From contig SBBF01000074.1 in the NCBI GenBank assembly GCA_005240075.1, positions 1 through 47,646 of the forward strand: a DNA stretch of 47,646 nt. The letters run 5' to 3'. Position numbers and translations under genes: made by a program. Of the stretch, positions 14,716 through 39,776 are shown in pieces. The notes beneath the pieces are model-generated. The model worked only from the letters and a program-made list of their open reading frames with translations, did no database searches and was not told the origin of the DNA. The DNA comes from Nitrospira sp. (GTDB lineage: Bacteria > UBA10199 > SBBF01). Numbering within the stretch: position 1 is the stretch's first letter; each line of letters begins with the position of its first letter.

Positions 14716-15830
14716 TGATTTTAAAAATTGAACAAGATCTAAACCGTTTCAAGCAGATTGTCCGGGGGAAAATCAAACAGGAACTGAAGCGTTTTATCAC
14801 CAACGGAGAATTGATCGGAAAACAGGGAAAGAATCTGGTCAGCATTCCCCTTGCGCAGATTGACATTCCCCATTTTCGGTATGCCGACCACCAGACGGGA
14901 GGGGTCGGTCAGGGAGAAGGGGAAGTGGGAACCCCTGTTGGCGTTGGTGAGGAAGAAGGAGATGGGGACAAGAAGGCGGGGAATCAGCCGGGGGGGCATG
15001 TTCTGGAAGTTGATCTGACGATGGAGGAATTGGCCCAGCTTTTGGGCGAAGAACTGGAACTCCCCCGCATTGAGCCGAAAGATTCCCAAAAACTGGTTTC
15101 CACCCGTTATGCCTACCGCGGGGTGAGGACCAGCGGCCCTGAGTCACTCCGTCATTTCAAACGAACCTACAAGCAGGCGCTGAAACGACAGATCATTTCC
15201 GGACAGTATAATTTCGCCAAACCGATTGTGATTCCCTACGGCGAGGACCGCCGTTACCGGAGCGTTAAGGTAGTCCAGGAACCCCAATCAAAAGCGGTGA
15301 TCATTTACATGATGGATGTCTCCGGTTCCATGGGGCAGGAGCAGAAGGAAATTGTCCGGCTGGAGTCATTCTGGATCGACATGTGGCTGAGGTCGCAGTA
15401 CAAGGGACTGGAATCCCGCTATATCATTCATGATGCCGTCGCCAGGGAGGTGGACCAGCAGACTTTCTATCATACGCGTGAATCGGGGGGGACGATCATT
15501 TCATCCGCCTATAAACTGGCCTTGAAGATGATCCACGATCATTACAACCCCGCTTTCTGGAATATTTATTGTTTTCATTTTTCTGACGGCGACAACTGGT
15601 CAGGCAACGACACCAACGAATGTTTGGGGTTGTTGGAGAAAGATTTTTTTCCCTTTACGAATCTTTTTTGCTACGGCCAGGTGGAGAGCGAATATGGGAG
15701 CGGCCAGTTTTTAAAGGACTTGAAAGAGCGTTTTGGCGATGCCCCGGAAAGACTTCGTGTGTCGAAGATAGAAGGGAAAGACAAGATCGTTGATTCGATC
15801 AAGGTTTTTTTGGGAAAAACAAAACAATAA
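14715..15830 (+). CDS. yeaH: YeaH/YhbH family protein (DUF444, von Willebrand A-like)
   Basis: 371 residues from the ATG in the TAATG junction with prkA. DUF444 layout: a basic N-terminus, a Gly/Glu-rich linker (60-95), the family segment [20 protein letters not shown] (131-150), then a VWA-like domain with MIDAS motif DVSGSM (201-206) and a distal [11 protein letters not shown]. It is the standard partner of PrkA; metal-dependent protein binding is expected. A longer ORF starting at 14646 lies inside prkA and was rejected. Confidence 0.94.
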
Positions 15831-15834
15831 TTTT

Positions 15835-18552
15835 ATGCTTTTGCCCGAATTAGAAAAATGGAGAGTTACCATCGAAAAAGAGGCGCGGAAGTGCGGCCTT
15901 GATTTTTTCGACACGATTTTTGAACTGCTCGATTGGAAGCAGATGAACGAAGTGGCGGCCTATGGCGGCTTTCCCAATCGTTATCCGCATTGGCGGTTTG
16001 GGATGGAATTCGAAAAACTCTCCAAAAGCTATGCCTACGGCTTGTCCAAAATTTACGAAATGGTCATCAACAACAATCCTTGTTACGCCTATCTTCTTCA
16101 CTCCAACCATCTGATGGATCAGAAACTGGTCATGGCCCACGTTTTTGGGCACTGCGATTTCTTCAAGAACAACATTTTTTTTCAGCACACCAACCGACAC
16201 ATGATTGACGAAATGGCCAACCACAAATCGAAGATCCAGCGCTATGTCAACAAATATGGCTACGAGGCGGTCGAATCATTTATTGATGTCTGTTTGTCCA
16301 TTGATAATCTGATTGACCACTATGCTCCCCTGATCAAAAGAACCCGACAGGATCCGGAAATAAACCCGGATGAAGAGGATATCGATGAGGAACGAAAGGC
16401 GGGGCATCATGTCAAAAAATTGAAGGTGAGCCGCGAATATCTGGATCATTACATCAACCCGAAGGAATTTATTCAATCCCAAAAGGAGGAATTATTGAAA
16501 AAATCAAGGGAGAGAAAAAAAATCCCCGAAGAGCCGGTCAAGGATGTTCTCTCTTTTCTTTTGGACCATGCTCCTCTGGACAAGTGGCAGTGGGACATTT
16601 TGTCGATGATCCGGGAGGAGGCCTATTATTTTGCCCCGCAGGGACAGACCAAGATCATGAACGAGGGGTGGGCCTGTGTGGCACCTGACACTCTTGTTTT
16701 TTCATCTGAGGGGCTCATTCCCATGAAAGCCATTGTTTTAGGGGGAGCGAAAGAAATATCGGACGGAAATGTTGCACAAAAGATTTATGGTCAAAATATG
16801 ATTAAAGACCATAGAACAATAACTCTATACACACGACGGGGGTTTAAACTGTGTGGTTCGGATAACCATCGTATTTTGAGTGAAGATGGAAAGAGTTGGA
16901 AACGACTTGATGAGTTGAAGATTGGAGATCAGGTTGCAATAAAAGGGGGACAAGGGTTATGGCCGAAGGATTTTATCAAAATTTCTTGGATACCCCCCTA
17001 TCGTTTTTCCCTTCAGGATGTTGCCACGGAGGCTCAAGTTTCCATTGATACAGTCATCCGTTATCGTGCGGGAAGGTCAATCAGGAATTCAACACAAGTT
17101 GCTCAGGCCATGGAATTGTACGATTCGTTGGAAAATCAGGATCTTCCCCAGGCTGTTAATAAAAGATTGCCGATTAAAATCCCGACTCATGTTACTTCTG
17201 AATTGGGATCTTTTTTGGGATATCTGGTTGGTGACGGCCATATTAGTCGGATCAAAAGACATGTTGGCATAACTACGGGTGACAAGGATCAAGCAGAATA
17301 TTTTAGTCAGTTATCATGCCGGCTTTTTGGTTTACTTCCTCGATTACGTTGGGACAAAGGTCGTTATCGCGTGTTGCTTCATTCTGAGGCGCTGTCTGAT
17401 TTCCTGGTACAATTTTTAAAATTAACCACGGGCCCTAGTGCGTCGAGTAAACAGGTTCCTGATCTTGTTTTGAGATCACCGGAGCCTGTTATACGTGAAT
17501 TTATTTCCTCCTATTTTGATTGTGATGCGTATGCCGGCAAACAGGGAGTGATTCTGAGCAGTACCAGTCGGCAGATGATTCAGCAGGTTCAGCTTTTGCT
17601 TTTGAACTATAATATTTTAAGCCGTGTTCGATCCCAGAAAGACGGATGTTGGCATTTGCACATTACGGGGAATTCAGCGGCAAAATTTGCGCAAAAAATA
17701 GGATTTCACCTGCGCCGAAAGCAAAAATCTCTTGAGAAATATGTGCAAAATCACCGATGGTTTAAGGAGGAAAGTTTTGTAGATCAGGTTGTTTCTCTTA
17801 ACCCTGGCCGGGGAGATGTTTATGACATATCTGTTGGGAATACACATCGTTATGTTGCTGCCGGATTAATCAATCATAATTCTTTCTGGCATTCCCGGAT
17901 CATGACGCAAAAAATTCTGAATGATTCGGAAATCATCGATTTTGCCGACCATCATTCCGGCACGGTGGCGGTCCAACCGGGGCGGTTGAATCCCTACAAA
18001 CTGGGGCTGGAGCTTTTCAGGGATATTGAAGAGAGATGGAACAAGGGGCGTTTTGGAAAAGAGTACGACGAATGCGACGATATGGTTGAAAAACTGAGAT
18101 GGAACAAAAATTCCGGATTGGGAGGGAAAAAAATTTTTGAGGTAAGAAAAATCTATAATGATGTTACGTTCATTGATGCCTTTTTAACGCGCGAATTTTG
18201 CGTTCAGCACAAACTCTTTGCCTTTGATTACAACAAAAACAGCTCGTATTACGAAATCTCCTCGCGCGAGTTCAAGGAGATCAAGGAAAAACTCCTTTTT
18301 TCCCTGACCAACTTTGGCCAGCCTTTCATATTTGTGCAGGATGCCAACTATGGCAACCGTGCCGAACTTCTCTTGTGGCATCGCCACGAAGGGGTCGATT
18401 TGAAGCTCGATTATGCCCGCGAAGTACTCAAAAATATTTATCAGATCTGGAAGCGCCCCGTGCTGGTTGAAACCAAAGTGGGGGACAAACTCAAAATTTA
18501 TTCCTTTGACGGCAAGGAACACCACGATGACGACACGAAGGAAGGGCTATAA
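15835..18552 (+). CDS. spoVR: SpoVR family protein interrupted by a LAGLIDADG intein
   Basis: 905 residues as translated. The N-extein (1-280) and C-extein (683-905) join to a 503-residue SpoVR, matching the roughly 500 residues of the family. N-extein marks include LEKWRVTIEKEARKCGLDFF, FPNRYPHWRFGMEFE and the HVFGHCDFFKNN segment. The insertion splits the conserved NEGWA / SFWH motif, so the intein must be removed to restore what looks like the active-site region. SpoVR supports the cortex in sporulating Bacillus; in non-sporulating bacteria it accompanies PrkA and YeaH with unknown biochemistry. The ATG at 15835 lies five bases after yeaH; an ORF start at 15790 inside yeaH was rejected. 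Confidence 0.93.
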   Translation: MLLPELEKWRVTIEKEARKCGLDFFDTIFELLDWKQMNEVAAYGGFPNRYPHWRFGMEFEKLSKSYAYGLSKIYEMVINNNPCYAYLLHSNHLMDQKLVMAHVFGHCDFFKNNIFFQHTNRHMIDEMANHKSKIQRYVNKYGYEAVESFIDVCLSIDNLIDHYAPLIKRTRQDPEINPDEEDIDEERKAGHHVKKLKVSREYLDHYINPKEFIQSQKEELLKKSRERKKIPEEPVKDVLSFLLDHAPLDKWQWDILSMIREEAYYFAPQGQTKIMNEGWACVAPDTLVFSSEGLIPMKAIVLGGAKEISDGNVAQKIYGQNMIKDHRTITLYTRRGFKLCGSDNHRILSEDGKSWKRLDELKIGDQVAIKGGQGLWPKDFIKISWIPPYRFSLQDVATEAQVSIDTVIRYRAGRSIRNSTQVAQAMELYDSLENQDLPQAVNKRLPIKIPTHVTSELGSFLGYLVGDGHISRIKRHVGITTGDKDQAEYFSQLSCRLFGLLPRLRWDKGRYRVLLHSEALSDFLVQFLKLTTGPSASSKQVPDLVLRSPEPVIREFISSYFDCDAYAGKQGVILSSTSRQMIQQVQLLLLNYNILSRVRSQKDGCWHLHITGNSAAKFAQKIGFHLRRKQKSLEKYVQNHRWFKEESFVDQVVSLNPGRGDVYDISVGNTHRYVAAGLINHNSFWHSRIMTQKILNDSEIIDFADHHSGTVAVQPGRLNPYKLGLELFRDIEERWNKGRFGKEYDECDDMVEKLRWNKNSGLGGKKIFEVRKIYNDVTFIDAFLTREFCVQHKLFAFDYNKNSSYYEISSREFKEIKEKLLFSLTNFGQPFIFVQDANYGNRAELLLWHRHEGVDLKLDYAREVLKNIYQIWKRPVLVETKVGDKLKIYSFDGKEHHDDDTKEGL
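16675..17880 (+). mobile_element. In-frame intein with LAGLIDADG homing endonuclease and HTH (SpoVR residues 281-682)
   Basis: 402 residues. It starts at Cys281 (CVAPDTLVFSSEG, splicing block A). Block B is GSDNHRIL with His345. A segment FSLQDVATEAQVSIDTVIRY (391 onward) reads like a LacI-type helix-turn-helix. The first endonuclease dodecapeptide is LGYLVGDGHI (Asp467); the second is REFISSYFDCDAY (554-566), with Cys where Gly is usual. Block F is VYDISVGNTHRYV, and block G ends LINHN before Ser683. Cys1, block-B His, penultimate His, terminal Asn and +1 Ser are all present, so splicing looks competent. The DNA is visibly more A/T-rich than the exteins, in line with acquisition. An Asp in each dodecapeptide suggests the endonuclease may still cut. 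Confidence 0.93.
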
Positions 18553-24696: not shown

Positions 24697-24915
24697 CTAC
24701 GCAAACATGGCTTGAGATTCAAGCGGCAATTTTTTCAGTATAAGTTCGTTGAGTTCGAGTTTTTTACTGGCATTGTCAATGTCAATTCCGACCAGTTGCC
24801 CTTGTTCATCGTAGTCCAGTACAACCCCTTCGGATATTTCCCTGCTTTCCGCACTTGGTTTTGAAGTCAAATCAATGTAGAGCGAATCGGTATCCGGATA
24901 ATATTGTAGTTTCAT
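24697..24915 (-). CDS. DUF2283 family small protein (module 2)
   Basis: 72 residues and a near-textbook DUF2283: MKLQYYPDTDSLYIDL, SAESREISEGVVLDYDEQGQ, LVGIDIDNASKKLEL. Its ATG overlaps the stop of the upstream DUF4258-like gene by 4 bases, and ACAGGAG provides a ribosome-binding site. It converges on the 526-residue gene with a 10-bp gap. It is better conserved than the module 1 copy, so the two modules are probably independent acquisitions or an old duplication rather than a recent inversion. Confidence 0.85.
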   Translation of the reverse strand: MKLQYYPDTDSLYIDLTSKPSAESREISEGVVLDYDEQGQLVGIDIDNASKKLELNELILKKLPLESQAMFA

Positions 24916-25154
24916 GGTTTGAATCTCCTGTCAAAAAAAGCATTATGAATGGTCACCTTGTCGTCAAGCGTTACCACTCTCAAAAAACGCCCTCCCATTT
25001 CCGGCACTGTTCCCCAAAAACGGTATCGGTTGTTTTCCTGTTTTTCGTGATGCAATGGACTTTCAATCACCTGGCAACACCACTCTTTTTTCAAATAGGG
25101 TCTTTTGCGCAATACTTCTTTTTCGAAATATTTTGTAAAACTGAAGCCAGGCAT
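24912..25154 (-). CDS. DUF4258-like small protein, putative toxin partner (module 2)
   Basis: 80 residues, paralogous to 22425-22667: FTKYFE, W at the same position, then RYRFWGTVPEMGGRFLRVVTL and TIHNAFFDRRF. It precedes DUF2283 in the same order and with the same ATGA overlap as module 1. A 6-bp palindrome, ACAATT/AATTGT (25162-25176), lies just before the start and could be an autoregulatory site. No ribosome-binding site is evident. Confidence 0.65.
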   Translation of the reverse strand: MPGFSFTKYFEKEVLRKRPYLKKEWCCQVIESPLHHEKQENNRYRFWGTVPEMGGRFLRVVTLDDKVTIHNAFFDRRFKP

Positions 25155-25176: not shown

Positions 25177-25229
25177 TAAAGAAAAGATAAACAAGCTCTT
25201 TCTTGTAGCCTAGTCTCCCCCCTTTTTTT

Positions 25230-25302
25230 CTCAAAATGAGGAAAAAACTCCCCAAAGGAGCTTGAAATCAAAGAGATAGCCCTTTTTTCTTCTCATTTTG
25301 AG
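25230..25302 (+). promoter_or_regulatory. Paired palindromic enhancer-like sites for a sigma-54 activator
   Basis: CTCAAAATGAG (25230-25240) and CTCATTTTGAG (25292-25302) are the same 11-bp palindrome, centred 62 bp apart (about six helical turns). They lie about 95 and 157 bp upstream of the -12 element at 25392. The same palindrome recurs at 39704-39714 upstream of another sigma-54 promoter. G/C runs next to the two sites could also let the region fold back on itself. Confidence 0.6.
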
Positions 25303-25376
25303 GGGGGATATTTGTTAAATATTAAATAATATCAAATGCTTATTTTTTATTTTGCAAAAGAACATTGCCATGGAAC

Positions 25377-25393
25377 TTGGCGTGGAAATTGCA
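25377..25393 (+). promoter_or_regulatory. Sigma-54 promoter of the 614-residue protein
   Basis: TTGGCGTGGAAATTGCA agrees with the sigma-54 consensus at 15 of 17 positions with correct GG-GC spacing. The expected start is near 25404, about 75 nt before the ATG at 25479. Confidence 0.75.
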
Positions 25394-25478: not shown

Positions 25479-27323
25479 ATGACAGCTGTTAATTTCGAAA
25501 GTAGTGGTGTTCAAAAAGAAGCGTTGGATAATCTTGTAAGACAAGGCAATGTACAAGGGAAAGCCTTAGACGGTGATTCTGAAACTCTGGAACGTCAAGT
25601 CTATCAGCAGATCGGCGGAGTGGGTGAAGGGGGAGACGCGGCCGAAATCGCGGCAAAAAAAGAGCAGGAATTAAGATCGCTGATTGGGCAAAGACGGGGA
25701 ATTGATAAAGATGGAGACGGACAAGTTGACAGTGAAGTTGGATTTTCTGAGAAGAAAAGATTTTTAAGAAAGCCTGGTTTAGTCATTACAGAGTATGCTT
25801 TTTCAACAGACCCAGTCCAAGCCCAAGCCAGACAGGCCGAATTACAAGCCCAATGGACTGCCGATCAGGCTGATAGAGCGGGACTTGGTACGGTAGCTGC
25901 AGCTCCCGCACCCACAGCTACAGCAGAGCCTGCAGGAACTACTGATAAAGTCTCTGCCCAAAGGACTGCAAATACCGAATATCTCAAAAAACCGATTGAA
26001 GATAAATTTGGGGATCCCAAAAGAGATATGGTTACAGGGAGTCCCGGTGCGCTCGCTTTTGATGCAAGTCTTCCTGCTGATCAAGAAATGTCAGCCGCCG
26101 GAGCCGCGGCTTTCAAGGCTGGTAAGGCTATGGGAATGACGGATGAAGCGGCTAAAGTCTACGTGCGTGATGTGTTGGCAGAGTATCCGGACAATGCCAA
26201 GGGGGTTTTGTCCCGCGTTAATTCTGATTTTACCAACGATCAACAGGCTGGCACCCGCCGAACAGGTCCGGTGGACCAATATGAAAACCCCGAGGCTTAT
26301 GCCCGTTTACGGGTTGGAACCAAAAAAGAGGATGTCGAAGCTTTTGAAGAAGGATGGTCGGAAGAGGCCCCTGAAGGTTCAGCTGTTGATAAATGGGCCG
26401 CCGTCATGGGGGCTGATTCCAACGTGAGAGGGGATGAATACCTCGACGGATTATTCGAAGGTTCTTCCAAAGGTGTGAGCGCCCGGGAAGTGGGCGAAAT
26501 TGGCGGGGAGGGGGTTTATGCCACCAAAGACCGCCGCGAGGAAGTGGGCAAAATTGCCGATACGATCAGGGAGGAAAGACTGGCCGATTTGCGTCAAGAT
26601 TTAGGGTTGGAGAAGGATGCCGATCTGGATGCTGAAAGAAAAAAAGTGGAAGAGTACCTGGCAAAGACAGATTTGTCTGAGACAGATAGAAAAAATTACG
26701 AGGCACAGCTTAAAAAACTGGATGAAAGAAGGGCGCAGATTGACGCCGATATCCAGGATGCCATTGCGAATCCAGCCAAGTTGCAAAGAATGAGTGACGG
26801 CCGGTTTAAGGCTTCCAAGCATGAAAAAGCGGCGGCGGCCAAGGCCAGAAGTGAAGGAGAGGAAACAGACTATTCCAAAGTGAGAAAAGGGGCTGAAGAA
26901 TTTTCTTTTTGGACCGGAAAAGCCAAAGAGGCTTTTGGTTATGTCCAGCAGGGGATCGAATTTTTCCAGAAGCAAGCTGATCGTATGGCAAAAGGACTGG
27001 AAAAAATAGGGGAACAAGTGGCCGGGCAAATGGGCGAACTTCTCAAAGAAGCCACAAGTCGGGAAGCCCCCCCAGAATTTATCAAAGGGGGCACCGAATT
27101 CAATCCTGCCGAGGTCACGGAAGGAACTGCGCGGTCGGCGCTTCAGAGAGGAGCTGTTGCTGGTACAGCCCCCGAAGCCCAGCCGGGCAACATGCTGGCT
27201 AAGGCCAATCATGTGGAACAACCGGGTCCCGACGGCAAAAAGAAAAAGAAACGAACTTTTGACTTAGAAGACTTAAGATCCCAAGTGCAGGCCCAGCGGG
27301 CGATTGATCGGTATACGGTGTAA
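25479..27323 (+). CDS. Large charged protein of unknown function (sigma-54 driven)
   Basis: 614 residues from the ATG at 25479, which has GAAGGAG seven bases upstream; a TTG at 25464 would add five residues. No signal peptide or membrane helix. Residues 76-87 (DKDGDGQVDSEV) resemble an EF-hand or dockerin calcium loop but lack the acidic residue at position 12. Residues 110-160 are Ala/Gln/Pro-rich; 350-480 are charged and helical; about 485-540 form an amphipathic helix region (FGYVQQGIEFFQKQ ... GEQVAGQMGELLKE). The C-terminus is basic (KKKKKRTFDLEDL). Function unknown. It resembles the 526-residue neighbour in composition and in promoter type, so the two may be exported or act together. 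Confidence 0.7.
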   Translation: MTAVNFESSGVQKEALDNLVRQGNVQGKALDGDSETLERQVYQQIGGVGEGGDAAEIAAKKEQELRSLIGQRRGIDKDGDGQVDSEVGFSEKKRFLRKPGLVITEYAFSTDPVQAQARQAELQAQWTADQADRAGLGTVAAAPAPTATAEPAGTTDKVSAQRTANTEYLKKPIEDKFGDPKRDMVTGSPGALAFDASLPADQEMSAAGAAAFKAGKAMGMTDEAAKVYVRDVLAEYPDNAKGVLSRVNSDFTNDQQAGTRRTGPVDQYENPEAYARLRVGTKKEDVEAFEEGWSEEAPEGSAVDKWAAVMGADSNVRGDEYLDGLFEGSSKGVSAREVGEIGGEGVYATKDRREEVGKIADTIREERLADLRQDLGLEKDADLDAERKKVEEYLAKTDLSETDRKNYEAQLKKLDERRAQIDADIQDAIANPAKLQRMSDGRFKASKHEKAAAAKARSEGEETDYSKVRKGAEEFSFWTGKAKEAFGYVQQGIEFFQKQADRMAKGLEKIGEQVAGQMGELLKEATSREAPPEFIKGGTEFNPAEVTEGTARSALQRGAVAGTAPEAQPGNMLAKANHVEQPGPDGKKKKKRTFDLEDLRSQVQAQRAIDRYTV

Positions 27324-29569: not shown

Positions 29570-32152
29570 ATGAGAACCGACAAGCTCACAACAAAAGCCC
29601 AAGAGGCATTATCGGACGCTCAGAATACCGCTCTGGAACGTTCCCACCAGCAGGTGGAGGTGGAACATCTTCTCTGGGCCCTCCTTCATCAAAAAGATGG
29701 ATTAACGAGTCCCCTGCTTCAGAAGATGGGCATTGCGCAAGCCTCGATCGCTCAGGAACTGGAAGCCCAGTTGGAAAAACTCCCCAAAATCTCCGGCGGC
29801 GCGGGAGAATATATCTCTCCAAAAATTAGAATCGTTTTGAACCGGGCTGAGAAGGAAGCCCAAAAACTTAAAGATGACTTTGTTTCCACGGAGCATCTTC
29901 TTTTGGCCATTCTAGAAACGACCGATCTCCCCGCCGGAGACATGCTCAAGAAAAAAGGGATCACCCGTGACAGTTTGCTAAAGGCGCTGGTAGAAATTCG
30001 GGGGGCCCATCGGGTAACCGATCCAAATCCGGAGGAAAAATATCAAGCGCTGGAGCGCTATACCCGTGACCTGACAGCGCTGGCTGGTCAAGGAAAACTC
30101 GATCCGGTCATCGGCCGGGATGAAGAAGTGAGACGAGTGATTCAGGTCTTGTCGCGACGAACCAAAAATAATCCGGTTTTGATTGGCGAACCGGGGGTGG
30201 GGAAGACCGCCATTGTGGAAGGACTGGCGATCCGGATAGCCCATGGGGATATTCCTGAAACGCTCAAGGATAAGAAAGTAGTGGCGCTCGATTTGGGATC
30301 TCTCATTGCTGGCACCAAATTCCGCGGCGAGTTTGAAGATCGTTTAAAGGCGGTCTTGAAAGAGATCACCCAATCCAACGGTCAGATCATTCTTTTTATT
30401 GATGAGCTTCACACGCTCGTGGGAGCGGGAAGTGCCGAAGGAGCCATGGATGCCTCCAACATGTTAAAGCCGGCGTTGGCCCGCGGCGAATTGCGGTGCG
30501 TGGGGGCCACTACCCTTGATGAGTATCGGAAACATGTTGAAAAAGATGCCGCTCTGGAGCGCCGTTTTCAGCCGGTTTTGGTGGGAGAGCCGACTGTTGA
30601 AGATACGATTGCCATTCTTCGGGGATTGAAGGAACGCTACGAAGTTCATCATGGAGTAAGAATTCAGGATTCGGCTCTGGTGGCGGCCGCCACCTTGTCC
30701 CATCGTTATATTTCTGACCGGTTTCTCCCCGACAAGGCAATTGATCTGATGGACGAGGCCGCTTCCAAACTGCGGATTGAAATTGCCTCTCTCCCTTCGG
30801 AGATTGACGAGATTGAAAGGAAGATTACGCAACTCCAGATTGAAAAACAGGCGTTGTCAAAAGAGGGAGATTCAGCTTCCCAGGAGCGGTTTCAAAAAAT
30901 TGAGTCGGAGCTCGCTCAATTAAAAGAGAAATCCGATGCGATGAAAGGACATTGGCAGAACGAAAAAGAGGGAATTTCTCAAATCCGTAAAATCAAGGAA
31001 GAGATGGAACAGACCAAAACCGCTTCTGAAAAGGCGGAGAGGCAGGGGGATTTAAGCAGGGCGGCCGAACTGAAATATGGAAAATTGCATGAACTGGGAA
31101 AAAGACTGGAGGAGGCCAATCGAAAATTAAACGAGCTTCAGAAAGAACAAAAAATGCTTCAAGAGGAAGTGGGGGAGGAGGATATTGCAGAAATTGTCGC
31201 CCGATGGACCGGAATTCCAGTTTCCAAAATGCTGGAAGGGGAGGCGGCCAAACTGCTGAGGATGGAGGATCGGTTAAAGCAGAGGGTGGTGGGGCAGGAT
31301 CATGCGGTGACCAAGGTTGCCAATGCAGTACGAAGAGCGCGCGCCGGTTTGCAGGATTTGAATCGTCCGATCGGCTCTTTTATTTTTTTGGGTCCGACCG
31401 GCGTGGGAAAAACAGAAACGGCCAGAGCGTTGGCCGAATTCCTCTTTGACAACGATCAGGCGATGATCCGGATCGACATGTCGGAATTTATGGAAAAACA
31501 TTCGGTGGCCCGGCTGATCGGCGCTCCTCCCGGCTATGTTGGTTACGAGGAGGGGGGGCACCTGACGGAATCTGTCCGCCGCAGACCCTACTCGGTGGTT
31601 CTTTTGGACGAGGTTGAAAAAGCGCATCCGGATGTTTTTAATATTTTGCTCCAGATTCTGGATGATGGACGGTTGACCGACGGCCATGGAAGAACGGTCG
31701 ATTTTAAAAACACGGTGATCATCATGACATCCAATATCGGTTCTCAGGCGATGCTGGAGGGGGGGGAAAACAGAAAAAAAGCGGAAAAAGAAATGGCCCA
31801 GCTGTTAAAAGCAACTTTCAAACCGGAATTTTTAAACCGGATCGACGATATCATTTATTTCAATTCGCTGGACGAATCGGCAATCCACAAGATTGTCGAT
31901 ATTCAAGCCCGGCGCCTGAATGAACTGCTGGAAAAAAGAAAACTGAAACTGGAATTCCACCCTCCTGTTCTCGACTGGCTTGGCAAGATTGGCTACGACC
32001 CCGTCTATGGGGCCCGTCCCCTCAAGCGGACCATCCAGAAACATATTCAGGATCCTTTATCCCTTGAAATCCTGGCCGGTAATTTTCGGGAGAACGACAC
32101 CATCAAAGCTGTTCTGAATGAAAAAGGGGAGATTGCCTTTTCCAAAAGATGA
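29570..32152 (+). CDS. clpB: ClpB-type AAA+ disaggregase
   Basis: 860 residues, normal for ClpB. The N-terminal Clp-N repeat pair covers about 1-145. NBD1 has Walker A GEPGVGKT (206-213); the long coiled-coil middle domain covers about 400-520 (Q/K/E-rich); NBD2 has Walker A GPTGVGKT (about 605-612) and [30 protein letters not shown]. It rescues aggregated proteins with DnaK. Unlike the usual heat-shock promoter arrangement, it is preceded by element A, whose stem sequesters the ribosome-binding site; temperature-sensitive opening is a testable idea. The stop overlaps the next gene by 4 bases. Confidence 0.97.
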
Positions 32153-33795
32153 TCCAGACTCCCCTGTTAACCCGACGTGATTTTATCAGAGCTGGTTTTT
32201 ACGGGGCTTTGTTTCTTTCTTGTGGAAGTCAACTCAATACTTTTTCATCCCTCTTTCCAACCGATGCCGACCCCGTAGCAACACTTCTTGATTTAACCTC
32301 TGAAGAATTTGCCGGTGATGAGGAAACGATTCCCCACGACGTGCTCCGTTTTGGGAAGGGAAGAAATCTTTCAATTCATTCATCTGCAAAGCACAATCTG
32401 GTGATTGTAGGGGGGGGTATGGCCGGTCTCTGCTCCGCTTATTTTCTTAAAAAATACAAACCGGTCGTTTTGGAACAGGCCGAACGGTTTGGGGGAAACA
32501 GCAAGGGGGAGGAATGGGAGGGGATCCCTTATTCCATTGGTGCCGCTTACATCACGGTTCCGGAAAAAGGCTCTGTGATCGAAAATTTTTTGGGTGAATT
32601 GGGCATTCTTTCCATGGGACGTATGGAATCGGGAAGGGAAGGGGCTGTTGTTCTGGATAGAGGGGAATTGGCAAGGGGTTTTTGGCAGGGGGCCACTGAT
32701 CCTTCCCAAAAAAGTTCCTTCGAAAAAGTGTTGCAAAAATTCAACTCTGTTTATGAAAAAGGTTATCCTTCCATCCCTTTTGATCCGGAAGGTTCTCTCG
32801 GCGAATCGGAGTGGAAAAATCTGGAGGAAATGACTTTTGCGCAATGGATTCTTCGGGAGTTGCCCGATCTCCACCCGCACATTCAGGAATTTCTGATTCA
32901 ATATTGCTGGTCTTCCTTTGGCGGGGGGGCGGACGAGATTTCAGCGGCTCAGGCTCTCAATTTTATTTCGGCCGATTTGCAGGGGACACTCGCTTTTCCG
33001 GGAGGAAATTCGGCCATCACTCAGGCTCTCTACAGGAAACTCAAAAAAAATATCGGTTCATCTTGTCTTCGATCCCGTTCTGTTGTGACAGAGATTGCCC
33101 TTCGCAAAGAAGGGGTATCGGTTACTTATAGGGATGAAAAGGGGCAAAAAAATGTTATCGAAGCCAAAGTGTGTGTTGTGGCGCTTCCCAAATTTGTCGC
33201 CAAACATATCATGCCCGACTTGTCTTTAGAGCAGAAAGAGGCGATGGCTCAAATCCGTTATCGGGCTTATCTGGTGGCCAATGTGTTGATAAAGGGAAAA
33301 ATCACTTCTCCCTCTTATGAACTCTTTCGATTGACTAGAACAATCCCCCGCAACAACACCGATGATTTATTGTCCCGCCCTTTTACCGATCTGATCTTTG
33401 CCAACTGGGTGCGACAGGATGAAGGGAATCATTCTGTTTTGACTTTGTATAAAGCGTATCCGTTTGAGGGGGGGCGATTTAAGTTTTTGGAACCCGATTT
33501 TTACCAAAAGGCCAAAGAGGATTTTGAAAAAGGATTTTCCGAAATTTTATCCGCCTTGAATTTGTCTCCTTCCCGAATTGCCGGAATAAGGATCGCCCGG
33601 TGGGGGCATGCTCTTCCGTTGGCCACGCCGGGATTTTTGTCTTCCGGCCTGGTTCAGAAAGCGTGCGCTCCGCTGGGAGACAAAATTTTTTTTGCCGAAC
33701 AAGACAACTGGGCCAACCCCTCTTTTGAAACCGCCTTCGATGAAGCTCAAAAAGTGGCAGAAAACGTCAACCGTTTGACTTCTTTATCATTTTGA
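32149..33795 (+). CDS. Tat-exported FAD-dependent amine-oxidase-like protein
   Basis: 548 residues. The N-terminus [21 protein letters not shown] is a twin-arginine signal, and SCGS could also be a lipobox. The Rossmann FAD motif is [21 protein letters not shown], followed about 20 residues later by [12 protein letters not shown]; a C-terminal FAD-contact segment ([30 protein letters not shown]) matches flavin-containing amine oxidase / protoporphyrinogen oxidase-type proteins. The substrate is unknown. It is translationally coupled to clpB by ATGA. It is the last gene before the sigma-54 region. Confidence 0.85.
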
Positions 33796-33894
33796 AAAGA
33801 GATATTGGGTTCACTTTTTTTTACTCCCAAAGATCAGATCATCTAACCCCATGAAATCAATGTAGATAACATAGTTTACTCGTTTTTTATCTTT

Positions 33895-33911
33895 TTGGCA
33901 TACCGTTTGCA
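33895..33911 (+). promoter_or_regulatory. Sigma-54 promoter of the 183-residue protein
   Basis: TTGGCATACCGTTTGCA matches the -24 (TTGGCA) and -12 (TTGCA) elements with exact spacing. The expected start is near 33922, 43 nt before the ATG, which has AAAGGAA. No CTCATTTTGAG palindrome is seen upstream. Confidence 0.72.
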
Positions 33912-33964: not shown

Positions 33965-34516
33965 ATGTCTGATACTAAAATAACTGAAAAATCACCACCA
34001 TCTGCAACGGATATTTCAACACCTGCCACTCCGCCAGCCGAGCCTCAAGCTCCAGCGATACCGCCAGCTCCTGCAACCGAAACAGCTCCTGGAATGGCTC
34101 CCCCAACGCCGGACAAGGTTCTGGCCGAAAAAATGGGAACTTCCACAGGTACAGTCGGTGGCCCTTATGGGCAACCAAGGGCAAGACCGACTGCCAGCAA
34201 TCTTTATTATGCCAAAGACAAAGCAGAAAAAGATTTAAAAACAGTATTTCAGTCAGCCTTGGCAATGAACCGCTTGGAATCTACTCCTGGCCTTGCTCTT
34301 CACGGGAGTGCGTTCTTCGATCCCTCGACCGGACGTCTGATGTATGTGCAGGTTGATAAGGCGGATGTTTCATCGGACGTTGTTCAATCTTTTCAGAGAT
34401 CTGCCAGGAGAGTTTCTCTTCCAACATCTCCCGATATGAAAGTTGAATATGAGGGGGAAGGTCCTGTCAAAACAATCAAACCGATTGTAGTTCCTTTCCG
34501 TTTCATAACGGTTTAA
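33965..34516 (+). CDS. Pro/Ala-rich protein with a TonB-C/AgmX-like C-terminal domain (sigma-54 driven)
   Basis: 183 residues. The first 75 are a Pro/Ala/Thr-rich, probably disordered linker with no signal peptide or membrane helix. Residues about 85-183 read L..HGSAFFDPSTGRLMYVQV, then DVVQSFQRSARRVSLP and a final VVPFRFITV. This spacing (DP-TGR-V, a helix, then a VPFRF-type last strand) resembles TonB C-terminal / AgmX domains, but I assign it only tentatively. It converges on the transglutaminase-like gene with a 3-bp gap and has its own sigma-54 promoter. Confidence 0.6.
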   Translation: MSDTKITEKSPPSATDISTPATPPAEPQAPAIPPAPATETAPGMAPPTPDKVLAEKMGTSTGTVGGPYGQPRARPTASNLYYAKDKAEKDLKTVFQSALAMNRLESTPGLALHGSAFFDPSTGRLMYVQVDKADVSSDVVQSFQRSARRVSLPTSPDMKVEYEGEGPVKTIKPIVVPFRFITV

Positions 34517-35495: not shown

Positions 35496-38400
35496 TTATA
35501 TTTTTCTTCTTATCGGCAGGATGAGGAATAAGTTGCTTAAAATCAACATGAAAAAAATGGGGGCTGAAGCTGCTGGATTAATTGATCTTTTTTGAAGCAA
35601 ACAACCTCCTCCCCCTTTGGCCTCGATGCCGTATTCCAGGGGAACAAGTATTTTGGTGCAGGTGGAGCTATCTGAAAGTTCAAAGTAAACAACAGTGTTT
35701 TCGCCAGACGATTCAGAGGCAGAAACGGTCAGTCCGCAAATAGTGTCTGTATTGCCTGCCTCGTAATCTCGTACCTCTTCCAATGTAGGTTCGCAGTTGT
35801 TGGCTTGTTCGACTTCATCGGTAGTGGAGGTGAGCATATCACAGGCCGGTACCGCCTCTTCTTCATCAGGATTGTCAAATTTTTCTTCGCCCTCACTAGC
35901 TGCTTCTTCAAGGGTACCGGTGGAATCTGTTGTTGTATTGTTGTTGGTACAATTTTCATCAATGGTGCCATCGCAATCATCATCAGTGCCATTGTCACAG
36001 GTCTCTGTCAAATCCCCGCAAGTGCCGCAGGCGTTGGTGACCCCTTCATCAACTTCATTGTCGCAGTCATTATCGGCTCCATCACAGGTTTCCTCGGCCG
36101 GCTGGCATTCTTCCGGTTTATCCATGCAGACCTGGGCCTCAATTTCGGTATACTGCCCACTTTCCCCTTTTTCCGAGACATGAGAATCGATGTCATGATT
36201 ATTAAGACGGTTTTGCGCCACAGCAGTCAGCGTTTGCGCCACTTTATCGAAAAGGTATGCGGTCTGAAACTCCTGGTTTAGGACAATCGGATTGTTCGAT
36301 GTGTCAAACCCAACGACCTCCATTCCTTGGAGTACCTGCAGGTTCGTTGTTCCCGAGTTCGCCAGATCCAACCGGACGACATTTCCCCCGCTGTCTTCCA
36401 TATACAGTTGAGCTTTGCGGTCTGCGTTTAAGCGGTTGATCGTGTCCGAGTTGTCGATAGCGTAAGTGACCGTCATCGTTCCCTGATCAGTATCCCGACA
36501 TTCAAACCCGACTGAAGTCATGAGGCAGGAGGCAAGCTGGGATTCTTTTTCATCAGGACATTCCGGCTTTTCATGGATCATGCATCCATCACAGCACCAT
36601 TGATCGTTGCTGGTGAGGCCATCCGTTCCGTCGCATTCTTCGTTCCCTTCTTTAGTGCCATTTCCGCACTCTTCAGCCACCAGTTGGCACTCTTCGCATG
36701 TTGGATCGGTCGTGCCGGGGGCTGGGTCACATTCTTCTGTCCCTTCCACAACGCCGTCGCCGCAGACAATTTCCTCACAAGCGGTTGTGCATCCATCGGT
36801 GTCATCCGAATTTCCATCGTCACATTCTTCTCCTGTATTGACAATCCCGTCTCCACAGGTGCCGCAGGCATTTCCCGCCGCGCTTGAAACTGTTGTATAT
36901 TCACAGCCGCTGGCGGTATTACAAGAATCGGTGGTGCAATCATTGCTGTCATTGCAGTCAAGGGCTGTTCCATCCTGGCAGGTAGAACCGGCCGCCGCCG
37001 AGACACAGGTTTCCGTGCCGTTGCACACATTCCCATCATCGCAGTCGGAATCGGAGACACAGCAATTATCGATGGGGGTATTGACCGCTTCTCCGTTACT
37101 GCAGCTGTCGGTTGTACAGGAATTGCCGTCATCCACATCGATCGGTGTGTGGGAAACTGTTCCAGAAGTCGGGTCACAGGAATCGGTGGTACAGGGATCA
37201 TCGTCGCTTGTCTCAATAGGAGTATGACTGGTGCCCGTTGAAGGGTCACAACTGTCAATCGTACAGGCGTCTCCATCATCGGTATCGACCGGAATATTGC
37301 TCACGGTTCCCGTTGTTGTATCGCATGAATCAATTGTACAGACGTTATTGTCATTGGGATCGATTGTTGTCGTCGAACAGGTTCCCGTAGCAACCCCATT
37401 GGTTCCACTTTGTCCCAATACACATTCTTCAGTAGTACAGGCGTTGCCGTCGTCGGCACAGTCATTGTCTGTCATACAGCAATCATCGATGGGACTATTG
37501 ATTGGATCTCCTGTTGCGGGATCGCAACTATCGGTTGTGCAGGTATTTCCGTCGTCAGGGTTAGATGGTTCGTGCAGACATTGACTGGTGGTCGTAGCAA
37601 TGTTGAAACTGCAGGTATCCGTTGTGCAGGCATCCCCGTCATCGCAATCGGTATTATCAAAACAGCAAGTTTCCGGATCGAGGCTGTTGTCGGCAGTCCC
37701 ATCGCAATCATTGTCTTGTCCGTCGCAGACTTCCTGGGTTGGTTGACAATCGGGTTGGCCCTGTTCCACTGGGTCAGTCGGTTTGACGCAGTAACCCCAT
37801 ACTCCCTCAGCTGAACAACCTTGGGAGCCTCCGCTCCAATAACCCTGACTGTTGTCATTTTCAGCTTTACAGTCGGGGTATTTGGGATCGCCGTAAGGGC
37901 ATCCCTCCGTTGAATCACATTCCTCCTGGGTTCCAGGTACACAGGGGATGGTGCAATTCATCGTGCAATCATCGCCATTGGCTGTATTTCCGTCGTCGCA
38001 TTCCTCTCCCGTATCGACAATTCCGTTGCCGCATGTCTGAGGAATATTTGAATTGGCCTGTTCGGTTGTCTCACCTGAATCAAACGTTGCCCCACATCCC
38101 TGCCATCTGTCGAGACTTGTTGAGCCAGTAGCCTCGGGCGTTTCCATCATCTTCAGATCATCTGTTGTGAGAGTGTAGGTTTGACCCGACGCATACTTGT
38201 TGTCCTCTCCTGAAATAAAATAAGTTTTTCCGTCATTGAGGCCGCTTGCAACGAGGGCTTTGACATCAGTGCGCACTGTAACAGCCGAAGGGATAAAGGG
38301 AACATTCAGGATCGTTGTGGCTGAATCGAGTGTTGCCGTATCGGGAGTGGGGGATGTCAACTTCGAGGTATCGATGAGCATGATCTGGTTTTCAGCCGAG

Positions 38401-39545
38401 TTTGTGAAAATGAGCATATTTTCATGGAAAATCCCGTCAGGGCTTTCCAAGGAATAGCCTCTTTGGTTCAAGTAAGATTTTGCATCGATTTCTCCCGATT
38501 GATTATCTTTCACGTTAGTTGCTTCGCTTGTGGCCATCGTTTTGATGATTCCATGTGAAGTCATTCCGACCAGCTTTCCGTCCGAAGTCATCGTAATCCA
38601 TTTCATCGGTTCACCAAAATCGAGCGTTTCTGAGATTTGTTGGGTTCCGTCAATATCGTCAATTTTTCCGTTCGTATCGAGAACATAAACATGGTCTGTC
38701 CCGCGGGTTAAATCGGCAATCTTGACCCCTTCTGGCATATCGATGGTGATAGTCTGAACCGCATAATTCTTGATTTCAGTCGAACCCTCGGACACCGGTT
38801 CATTCATGATGAAATGGAGGTGATTGTCATGTCCCCAAATAAGAGCTTGATAGGAGGAAGGATCCGCCGTGATTCCTTTGACATTCTGATATCCGGTGGC
38901 CTGTATGACCAGTTGACCATTTTCATTGTAGCAAGCTATCTGGCTTTTTTCTGTGGAAGCAAAACAGCCGATGCCTTGCGAAGATTCTCCTGAGGGGCAG
39001 GTGAAGGTGGGGATTTGATCACAAATATCGCTGACGCCGTCTTTGTCTGAATCAGCCCCATCATCCACTTGTCCATTGCAGTCATTGTCCTTCCCGTCGC
39101 AGACTTCGGGGTTTCCCGGAAACATCGTAGAATCCTGATCGTTGCAGTCATCATTGTTGGTAACAACTCCATCCTGGATTACGCAGACTGAAATCGGATT
39201 TACCGGGTCTCCATGACCATCTCTGTCATTATCAGGATAGACGATTGATGTGCCGATATCGGCCTCTTCCGTGATTCCATCGCAGTCGTTATCAATTCCC
39301 CAATCGCTACATGTTTCCTGTTGTGGAATGCACTTGGTACCGTTTGTTGTTGCATTGGTTTTGGGGGCCACTGTCTGATTCGCTGTCGAGATTTGGGGAG
39401 CAGCTAAATTTTGTGAAGGAGATATTTTTGTAGCGTCTGTTGATTGGGTTTGAGCATGAAGCGAGGAAGAGCGTGCTATTAAAAACAACCCCGCAATCAC
39501 AACCCAAGCGATCGAAACCCTTTTCCCTCTAAAAAAAGGTGTCAT
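35496..39545 (-). CDS. Giant cysteine-rich surface protein (MopE-like and myxobacterial disulfide repeats) with C-terminal sorting tail
   Basis: 1349 residues. A signal peptide covers about 1-31 (VIAGLFLIARSSSLHAQ). A first MopE-type block (about 77-175) has DNDCDG and CDGKDNDCNGQVDDG calcium-type loops. Residues about 190-480 are a Cys-poor domain that may be a propeller. Then follow repeats of CGNGIVDTGEECDDGN, about eight units of the type DDGNxCTTDSCDxxTG, two more GEECDDGN/EECDP blocks, and ETCDGADNDCDNEVDEG near the end. The C-terminus is GGGGCLLQKRS, a hydrophobic helix and IRRKI: a Cys - transmembrane - basic tail like MYXO-CTERM-type sorting signals. Expected to be exported, disulfide-bonded and surface-attached. 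It has its own sigma-54 promoter and heads an operon with the transglutaminase-like gene. Confidence 0.85.
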   Translation of the reverse strand: MTPFFRGKRVSIAWVVIAGLFLIARSSSLHAQTQSTDATKISPSQNLAAPQISTANQTVAPKTNATTNGTKCIPQQETCSDWGIDNDCDGITEEADIGTSIVYPDNDRDGHGDPVNPISVCVIQDGVVTNNDDCNDQDSTMFPGNPEVCDGKDNDCNGQVDDGADSDKDGVSDICDQIPTFTCPSGESSQGIGCFASTEKSQIACYNENGQLVIQATGYQNVKGITADPSSYQALIWGHDNHLHFIMNEPVSEGSTEIKNYAVQTITIDMPEGVKIADLTRGTDHVYVLDTNGKIDDIDGTQQISETLDFGEPMKWITMTSDGKLVGMTSHGIIKTMATSEATNVKDNQSGEIDAKSYLNQRGYSLESPDGIFHENMLIFTNSAENQIMLIDTSKLTSPTPDTATLDSATTILNVPFIPSAVTVRTDVKALVASGLNDGKTYFISGEDNKYASGQTYTLTTDDLKMMETPEATGSTSLDRWQGCGATFDSGETTEQANSNIPQTCGNGIVDTGEECDDGNTANGDDCTMNCTIPCVPGTQEECDSTEGCPYGDPKYPDCKAENDNSQGYWSGGSQGCSAEGVWGYCVKPTDPVEQGQPDCQPTQEVCDGQDNDCDGTADNSLDPETCCFDNTDCDDGDACTTDTCSFNIATTTSQCLHEPSNPDDGNTCTTDSCDPATGDPINSPIDDCCMTDNDCADDGNACTTEECVLGQSGTNGVATGTCSTTTIDPNDNNVCTIDSCDTTTGTVSNIPVDTDDGDACTIDSCDPSTGTSHTPIETSDDDPCTTDSCDPTSGTVSHTPIDVDDGNSCTTDSCSNGEAVNTPIDNCCVSDSDCDDGNVCNGTETCVSAAAGSTCQDGTALDCNDSNDCTTDSCNTASGCEYTTVSSAAGNACGTCGDGIVNTGEECDDGNSDDTDGCTTACEEIVCGDGVVEGTEECDPAPGTTDPTCEECQLVAEECGNGTKEGNEECDGTDGLTSNDQWCCDGCMIHEKPECPDEKESQLASCLMTSVGFECRDTDQGTMTVTYAIDNSDTINRLNADRKAQLYMEDSGGNVVRLDLANSGTTNLQVLQGMEVVGFDTSNNPIVLNQEFQTAYLFDKVAQTLTAVAQNRLNNHDIDSHVSEKGESGQYTEIEAQVCMDKPEECQPAEETCDGADNDCDNEVDEGVTNACGTCGDLTETCDNGTDDDCDGTIDENCTNNNTTTDSTGTLEEAASEGEEKFDNPDEEEAVPACDMLTSTTDEVEQANNCEPTLEEVRDYEAGNTDTICGLTVSASESSGENTVVYFELSDSSTCTKILVPLEYGIEAKGGGGCLLQKRSINPAASAPIFFMLILSNLFLILPIRRKI

Positions 39546-39579: not shown

Positions 39580-39596
39580 TGCAAAACAAATGCCAT
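39580..39596 (-). promoter_or_regulatory. Sigma-54 promoter of the cysteine-rich protein operon
   Basis: On the minus strand ATGGCATTTGTTTTGCA contains TGGCA and TTTTGCA with the correct GG-GC spacing. The expected start near 39569 leaves a leader of about 24 nt. Confidence 0.7.
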
Positions 39597-39702
39597 TTAA
39601 CGCTTTTTCTCGAAATCACCAGGATTAATATTTTATAATTAAAAATTAGATACTTGAAGAAATCCCAACGTCATCCTTTATTTTGCCCTTTTCCATTTTA
39701 TT

Positions 39703-39755
39703 TCTCATTTTGAGAATATTCTCTTTATGAGAATGTTGAATTGAGAATGTTGAAT
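39703..39755. promoter_or_regulatory. Palindrome cluster, likely sigma-54 activator sites, plus 14-bp tandem repeat
   Basis: TCTCATTTTGAGA (39703-39715) runs into the palindrome GAGAATATTCTC (39712-39723). Two exact tandem copies of TGAGAATGTTGAAT follow (39728-39741, 39742-39755). The CTCATTTTGAG core is the same as the pair at 25230-25302 and lies about 125 bp upstream of the sigma-54 promoter at 39580. The cluster also sits just upstream of the divergent ffh promoter, so it may act on both. Confidence 0.6.
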
Positions 39756-39776
39756 GAGACCAAATAACATCCCAGC

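Follow-up and report, generated by a model that had tools for sequence, protein, structure and literature searches.

Among known sigma-54 systems, the enhancer sites closest to those reported here are those of vibrios: the SypG enhancer of Vibrio fischeri reads TTCTCANNNTGMDWN and the vibrio LuxO enhancer reads TTGCAWWWTGCAA (excerpts of PMC10162802). In Desulfovibrio vulgaris, 36 sigma-54 regulons have been described, and likeness between binding motifs is reported not always to be in step with likeness between the helix-turn-helix (HTH) domains (excerpts of PMC4641369). Among the literature matches listed for the words CTCATTTTGAG, TCAAAATGAGA and TCTCAAAATGAGA none concerned bacterial regulation by title, and among those listed for UBA10199 none concerned regulation by title. 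A search combining sigma-54, lipoproteins and Deltaproteobacteria found nothing, and the excerpted text of PMC12316311 does not mention UBA10199.

The window, i.e. the whole stretch of 47,646 nucleotides analysed here, contains three exact copies of the 11-bp sequence CTCATTTTGAG, an interrupted palindrome of the form CTCA-TTT-TGAG, at 25230-25240 (minus strand), 25292-25302 and 39704-39714, as the initial annotation had reported. The copies had been described as lying about 95-160 bp upstream of a sigma-54 -12 element, with the first pair six helical turns apart; a scan of the window and hand counts bore this out, the distances from site centre to the GC of the -12 element being 156, 94 and 127 bp and the first pair being separated by 62 bp, or about 5.9 turns. 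Taken inside the window alone, the number of copies is only mildly unusual: CTCANNNTGAG occurs 3 times compared with 0.57 expected, a count reached in 1 of 100 shuffles, and CTCATTTTGAG with at most one mismatch occurs 3 times compared with 1.85 expected, a count reached in 28 of 100 shuffles. The strength of the observation comes from the promoters and from the rest of the genome.

In each of three units of the window, putative enhancer sites resembling the consensus TTMTCAWWWTGAKAA accompany a promoter with GG and GC elements 10 bp apart at -24/-12 (25378-25393, 33896-33911 and 39580-39595; element scan, among the 100 of 101 matches listed). The first unit, on the plus strand, has two such sites, TTCTCAAAATGAGGA (25228-25242, 14 of 15 positions) and TTCTCATTTTGAGGG (25290-25304, 13 of 15, 62 bp from the former), followed by the sequence TATCAAATGCTTA (25330-25342), which is exact to WATCAANNNNTTR, the sequence that we take to be the IHF consensus, and which lies between enhancer site and promoter. 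The promoter, TGGCGTGGAAATTGCA (25378-25393), was called strong and is upstream of a gene for a protein of 614 aa (25479-27323). This protein has no Pfam family, and since a search of 59 other genomes gave no match, an orthology-based comparison of its promoter was precluded. Divergent from the gene is a pair on the minus strand (24700-25154), coding for a 72-aa DUF2283 protein and an 80-aa ORF without Pfam match, which presumably resembles a toxin-antitoxin pair.

The second unit had been overlooked in the initial annotation and came to light when every copy of the 9-base core was scanned. It consists, again on the plus strand, of the site TTATCATTTTGAAAA (33784-33798, 14 of 15), which overlaps the stop codon of 32149-33795, the promoter TGGCATACCGTTTGCA (33896-33911, element scan) and a gene for 183 aa (33965-34516), the product of which has no Pfam family. 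The third unit is on the minus strand, in which direction the site TTCTCAAAATGAGAA (39702-39716) matches at 15 of 15 positions and a second copy, TTCTCATAAAGAGAA (39719-39733), 17 bp from it, at 14 of 15. The promoter paired with the palindrome at 39704-39714, TGGCATTTGTTTTGCA (39580-39595, element scan), precedes the gene at 35496-39545, encoding 1349 aa with a MopE metal-binding motif and judged by eye to be exported, and not ffh. A promoter of ffh (39825, plus strand) served by the 39704 site was rejected, since no sigma-54 element was found in that orientation, the promoter being one of the minus strand. A tentative Fur-box reading of the GAGAAT repeats at 39704-39762 was dropped, the repeats being resolved into the second enhancer copy 17 bp away. 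Elsewhere in the window, downstream of PrkA and DUF444 genes, a SpoVR-like gene (15790-18552, plus strand) contains an intein (Intein_splicing and LAGLIDADG_3 domains).

The genome to which the window belongs (1.96 Mb, 117 contigs) has one RpoN (C54:5027-5500, E 3.3e-64) and sigma-54 activator domains in seven near-complete copies plus fragments. One protein, of 1673 aa (L160, C102), combines a Ser/Thr-kinase-like start and a long middle with a sigma-54 activator domain. The promoter pattern TGGCNYGN4TTGCW occurs 21 times in the genome, compared with 0 for its reversed control, and the core TCAAAATGA 78 times, compared with 6. Nor is the palindrome equally frequent away from sigma-54 promoters, the finding that would have spoken against the initial annotation: seven of the nine exact genomic 11-mers have a sigma-54-like site (score of at least 10 of 12) starting 76-174 bp away, and no site of that score was found near the other two (C54:6239 and C75:17753). 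The test covered the exact 11-mers, beside which the genome has 19 other CTCANNNTGAG sites with other centres.

A sigma-54-like site scoring at least 10 of 12 starts 76-174 bp from 13 of the 78 core copies. When the 78 were divided by the five positions outside the search word, T[CA]..[GT]AA, a sigma-54 promoter was present within 50-200 bp of all nine copies with full flanks (5/5), of four of the eight with 4/5 flank matches and of none of the 61 with three or fewer (Fisher test for 13/17 compared with 0/61 promoter-linked copies, 1e-11). Aligned with each other, the 13 promoter-linked sites show T (12/13), C or A (12/13), TCAAAATGA, G or T (13/13), A (12/13) and A (12/13). Conversely, among the 9-mers located at -50 to -200 relative to 48 candidate sigma-54 promoters, TCAAAATGA was the commonest (11/48, against a mean of 0.335 and a maximum of 3 in 1000 shuffles). 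These candidates were picked mostly by consensus and surely include some false promoters; the variants TGGCGT and TGGTATG entered the set after being sighted beside sites, and without both the count is 9/46. By the shuffles for the 48 promoters, the control word and the flank split alike, inverted repeats shared at enhancer distance exceed what chance would give.

In this genome, the predicted regulon would comprise no fewer than 12 promoters, most of them serving exported proteins and lipoproteins. Judged by eye, seven of the 12 first genes (C1, C82, C86, C101, C66, C108 and 39545 in the window) begin with a signal peptide or lipobox and four do not (25479 and 33965 in the window, C80 and C111). 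The first gene of the twelfth promoter (C21, TGGCACAAAAAATGCA), a promoter outside the set of 48, ends at a contig edge and its export status is uncertain. MopE metal-binding repeats are found both in the product of 35496-39545 and in that of the second gene of the C66 unit, the first gene of which encodes a PKD-domain protein, and the C111 target has HEAT repeats. Sigma-54-type promoters ahead of FlhA/SctV-like genes (C8 and C56; L144 and L152, by eye) have no TCAAAATGA core and are probably served by other activators.

The same arrangement recurs across the class of uncultured bacteria concerned, UBA10199 in GTDB. A sigma-54 element with TCAWWWTGA at 66-126 bp gave 264 matches in 43 of 46 class genomes (115 forward and 149 reverse, overlapping site pairs being counted more than once), whereas the composition-matched control ACTWWWAGT at the same distance gave 12 matches in nine of the 46. 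Thirty loci from relatives show TTMTCAWWWTGAKAA, often paired about 16-32 bp apart, and at 42 promoters (12 from this genome and 30 from relatives, both sets chosen for holding a site) there were 57 sites with at least 12 of 15 positions, compared with 5 for a control consensus. The stricter 14-mer TMTCAWWWTGAKAA occurs in 42 of the 46 class genomes, in most cases well in excess of the reversed control, and is absent from G010, G019, G034 and G044; with the looser combination of a sigma-54 element and TCAWWWTGA, G019 has four matches and G034 one. In 14 genomes outside the class the 14-mer was found 12 times forward and 10 times reverse (control, 7 and 8), with a higher count in a single genome, G052 (5 + 2, compared with 1 + 0). 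In 17 of the 30 relatives' loci, the stretch from site to promoter contains an IHF-like sequence with at most one mismatch (shuffle mean 5.0, the count reached in 0 of 200 shuffles). The corresponding enrichment in the window's own genome is weak (7 of 12, compared with a mean of 3.5; reached in 9 of 200 shuffles).

The initial annotation had proposed that the palindromes are binding sites for one bacterial enhancer-binding protein, and the genome-wide and class-wide sequence tests support it. Very probably, one master sigma-54 activator docks at this palindrome. In favour are the association of the palindrome with sigma-54 promoters throughout the genome, the conservation of flanking positions outside the search word, its reappearance at a like distance in genomes of the class compared with a control word, the presence of RpoN and several activator genes, and the IHF-like sites between site and promoter. 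The palindromes would be upstream activating sequences with the consensus TTMTCAWWWTGAKAA, often paired and mostly situated 80-180 bp upstream, to which a single enhancer-binding protein would bind in dimeric or higher oligomeric form. DNA looping, in many cases probably aided by IHF, would bring it to the -24/-12 promoter, where its AAA+ ATPase would open the closed complex of RNA polymerase and sigma-54. As a whole, this explanation, with one enhancer-binding protein and one regulon, appears highly probable to us; we infer from sequence the binding, looping and activation, as well as which activator is involved and what its signal is.

The activator that we consider the likeliest, with a reasonable though not high degree of confidence, is an NtrC-family protein of 459 aa (C66:9541-10917, minus strand), hereafter called A. 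It has a sigma-54 interaction AAA+ domain (PF00158, E 2.7e-73) in which the GAFTGA-type loop reads GSFTGA, and a C-terminal Fis-type HTH, the HTH end matching the DhaR, LuxO and Fis models; the HTH alone scores best with DhaR (36.6 bits) and second with LuxO (31.5 bits). Whole-protein NCBIfam scores did not separate the activators of the genome, and scores of the HTH alone separate them weakly. A is an equivalog to no NCBIfam activator, all scores being below cut-off. It was not called LuxO or SypG, since it scores 364.6 bits against the LuxO cut-off of 800 and lacks the acceptor Asp of the receiver, a residue missing from the alignment column in 30 of 30 orthologues. The receiver of the proposed activator would not be phosphorylatable at the usual Asp. 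FleQ, FlrA and further activators whose receiver is atypical likewise have a receiver-like N-terminus without the acceptor Asp together with an intact AAA+ domain and an HTH, and A resembles them in all three respects.

An orphan NtrC-family regulator had been suggested as the protein to look for. A is a good candidate, but it does not stand alone: it ends a cluster in which a histidine kinase is accompanied by three sigma-54 activators in a row (C66:9541-14500, L142), in the order kinase-C-B-A, which recurs, with A last, in nearly all genomes of the class. In this genome, C keeps the acceptor Asp and B is without it, an acidic start being kept in at least one relative. Orthologues of A with 50-69% identity are present in 40 of the 46 class genomes, own genome included, the next matches having mostly 37-46% and a few partial ones up to 51%. 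The six genomes outside the 40 are G003, G044, G037, G010, G036 and G040, and in three of them A was found by inspection, partly by eye, ending inside the gene at a contig end (G003 and G044) or with a broken frame (G037). In 29 of 30 orthologues the sequence of the recognition helix is GQATLYRK or GQATMYRK. The sole one altered is that of G045 (VSSATLYRK; L213 and L226), and the nine 14-mer matches of that genome are all TCTCAAAATGAGAA or TCTCATTTTGAGAA; co-variation of helix and site is possible, the cases being too few to judge. Self-regulation of the kinase-C-B-A cluster was rejected, no such promoter being found in ten loci scanned, and the 14-mers close to the G014 and G039 clusters were accompanied by no sigma-54 element scoring at least 10.

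A is favoured because its orthologues are widespread in the class, its recognition helix is constant in 29 of 30 of them, LuxO is the second-best model for its HTH, the LuxO and SypG sites are similar to the palindrome, and the strict 14-mer and A are missing together from G010. That genome has an intact kinase-C-B locus without A (L321) and 0 copies of TMTCAWWWTGAKAA, which is suggestive only, because G019 and G034 have A and yet no strict 14-mer. The sites could instead be enhancers for another activator, namely B, C, one with an FHA domain (C28, C58) or the incompletely assembled one of C108/C22, a reading that we regard as possible and somewhat doubtful. B and C are equally conserved, with recognition helices about as constant as that of A across the class, an activator fragment on C108 shares its contig with one of the target promoters, and some genomes that lack the strict 14-mer do have A. 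Set against this, LuxO, which has a similar site, gives a good score for no activator but A, the HTH ends of B and F matching GlrR best, those of C and E PrdR, that of D Fis and NtrC and that of I Fis, and G010 keeps B and C but is without the 14-mer.

Two further readings do without an enhancer. The palindromes might be operators of a repressor or of a regulator other than one of sigma-54 promoters, for instance for the DUF2283-linked pair at 24700-25154, which is separated from the 614-aa gene by an interval containing two copies. Operators would overlap promoters, however, and the sites keep their distance to a sigma-54 element both at 12 unrelated promoters (76-174 bp) and across 43 of the 46 genomes, which makes such a role very unlikely. 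Less probable still, to the point of being negligible, is an origin by chance or as a terminator-like hairpin of intergenic, AT-rich DNA: one terminator-like call was made at 25286-25308 and the word is not rare inside the window alone, but shuffles and control words gave far lower counts, and copies with poor flanks were promoter-less in 61 of 61 cases. The shuffles, the control word and the flank split already refute it.

With the palindromes read as upstream activating sequences of one activator, the system is of an ordinary kind, newly recognised here, reaching 12 promoters in the genome and most genomes of the class. Site, promoters and candidate activator together offer a testable regulon for a class represented here by metagenome assemblies alone, and proteins without known relatives, such as those of 614 and 183 aa, are linked to one control circuit. 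The G010 cluster, with kinase, C and B and without A, is a natural deletion that could be used as a test. An activator without phospho-acceptor that is kept beside a kinase across the class is also offered as a case. More tentatively, and at not quite even chances in our estimate, this may be an old class-wide master regulon, in which an activator with a non-phosphorylatable receiver was kept in a cluster with a kinase and two activators and the 15-bp enhancer changed little while the exported and surface targets, some without known relatives, turned over.

Compared by description with the sigma-54 regulons of D. vulgaris, in so far as the excerpts of PMC4641369 present them, the system is alike in having conserved activator sites ahead of sigma-54 promoters, deduced by comparative genomics, and targets with extracellular functions, type III secretion being also among the targets there. 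It differs in lineage and in extent, the D. vulgaris regulons mostly comprising one to four operons (PMC4641369) and the site described here at least 12 promoters. The resemblance to the vibrio sites, as excerpted from PMC10162802, extends to the sequence: by eye, 39702-39716 fits the SypG motif TTCTCANNNTGMDWN fully, and 25228-25242 and 25290-25304 have one mismatch each to it. Like the SypG and LuxO sites, the palindrome is interrupted, has a 3-base centre, lies upstream of sigma-54 promoters and is often present in more than one copy. In contrast to those systems, lineage and targets are other, the symmetric TTMTCAWWWTGAKAA has both C/A and G/T variants, and candidate A, unlike response regulators of the LuxO/SypG type, has no acceptor Asp and falls far short of the cut-off for the LuxO family (364.6 bits, the threshold being 800). 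A may nevertheless read a code similar to that of LuxO and SypG, and the likeness of the sites suggests that a SypG/LuxO-like enhancer code is in use far outside the vibrios.
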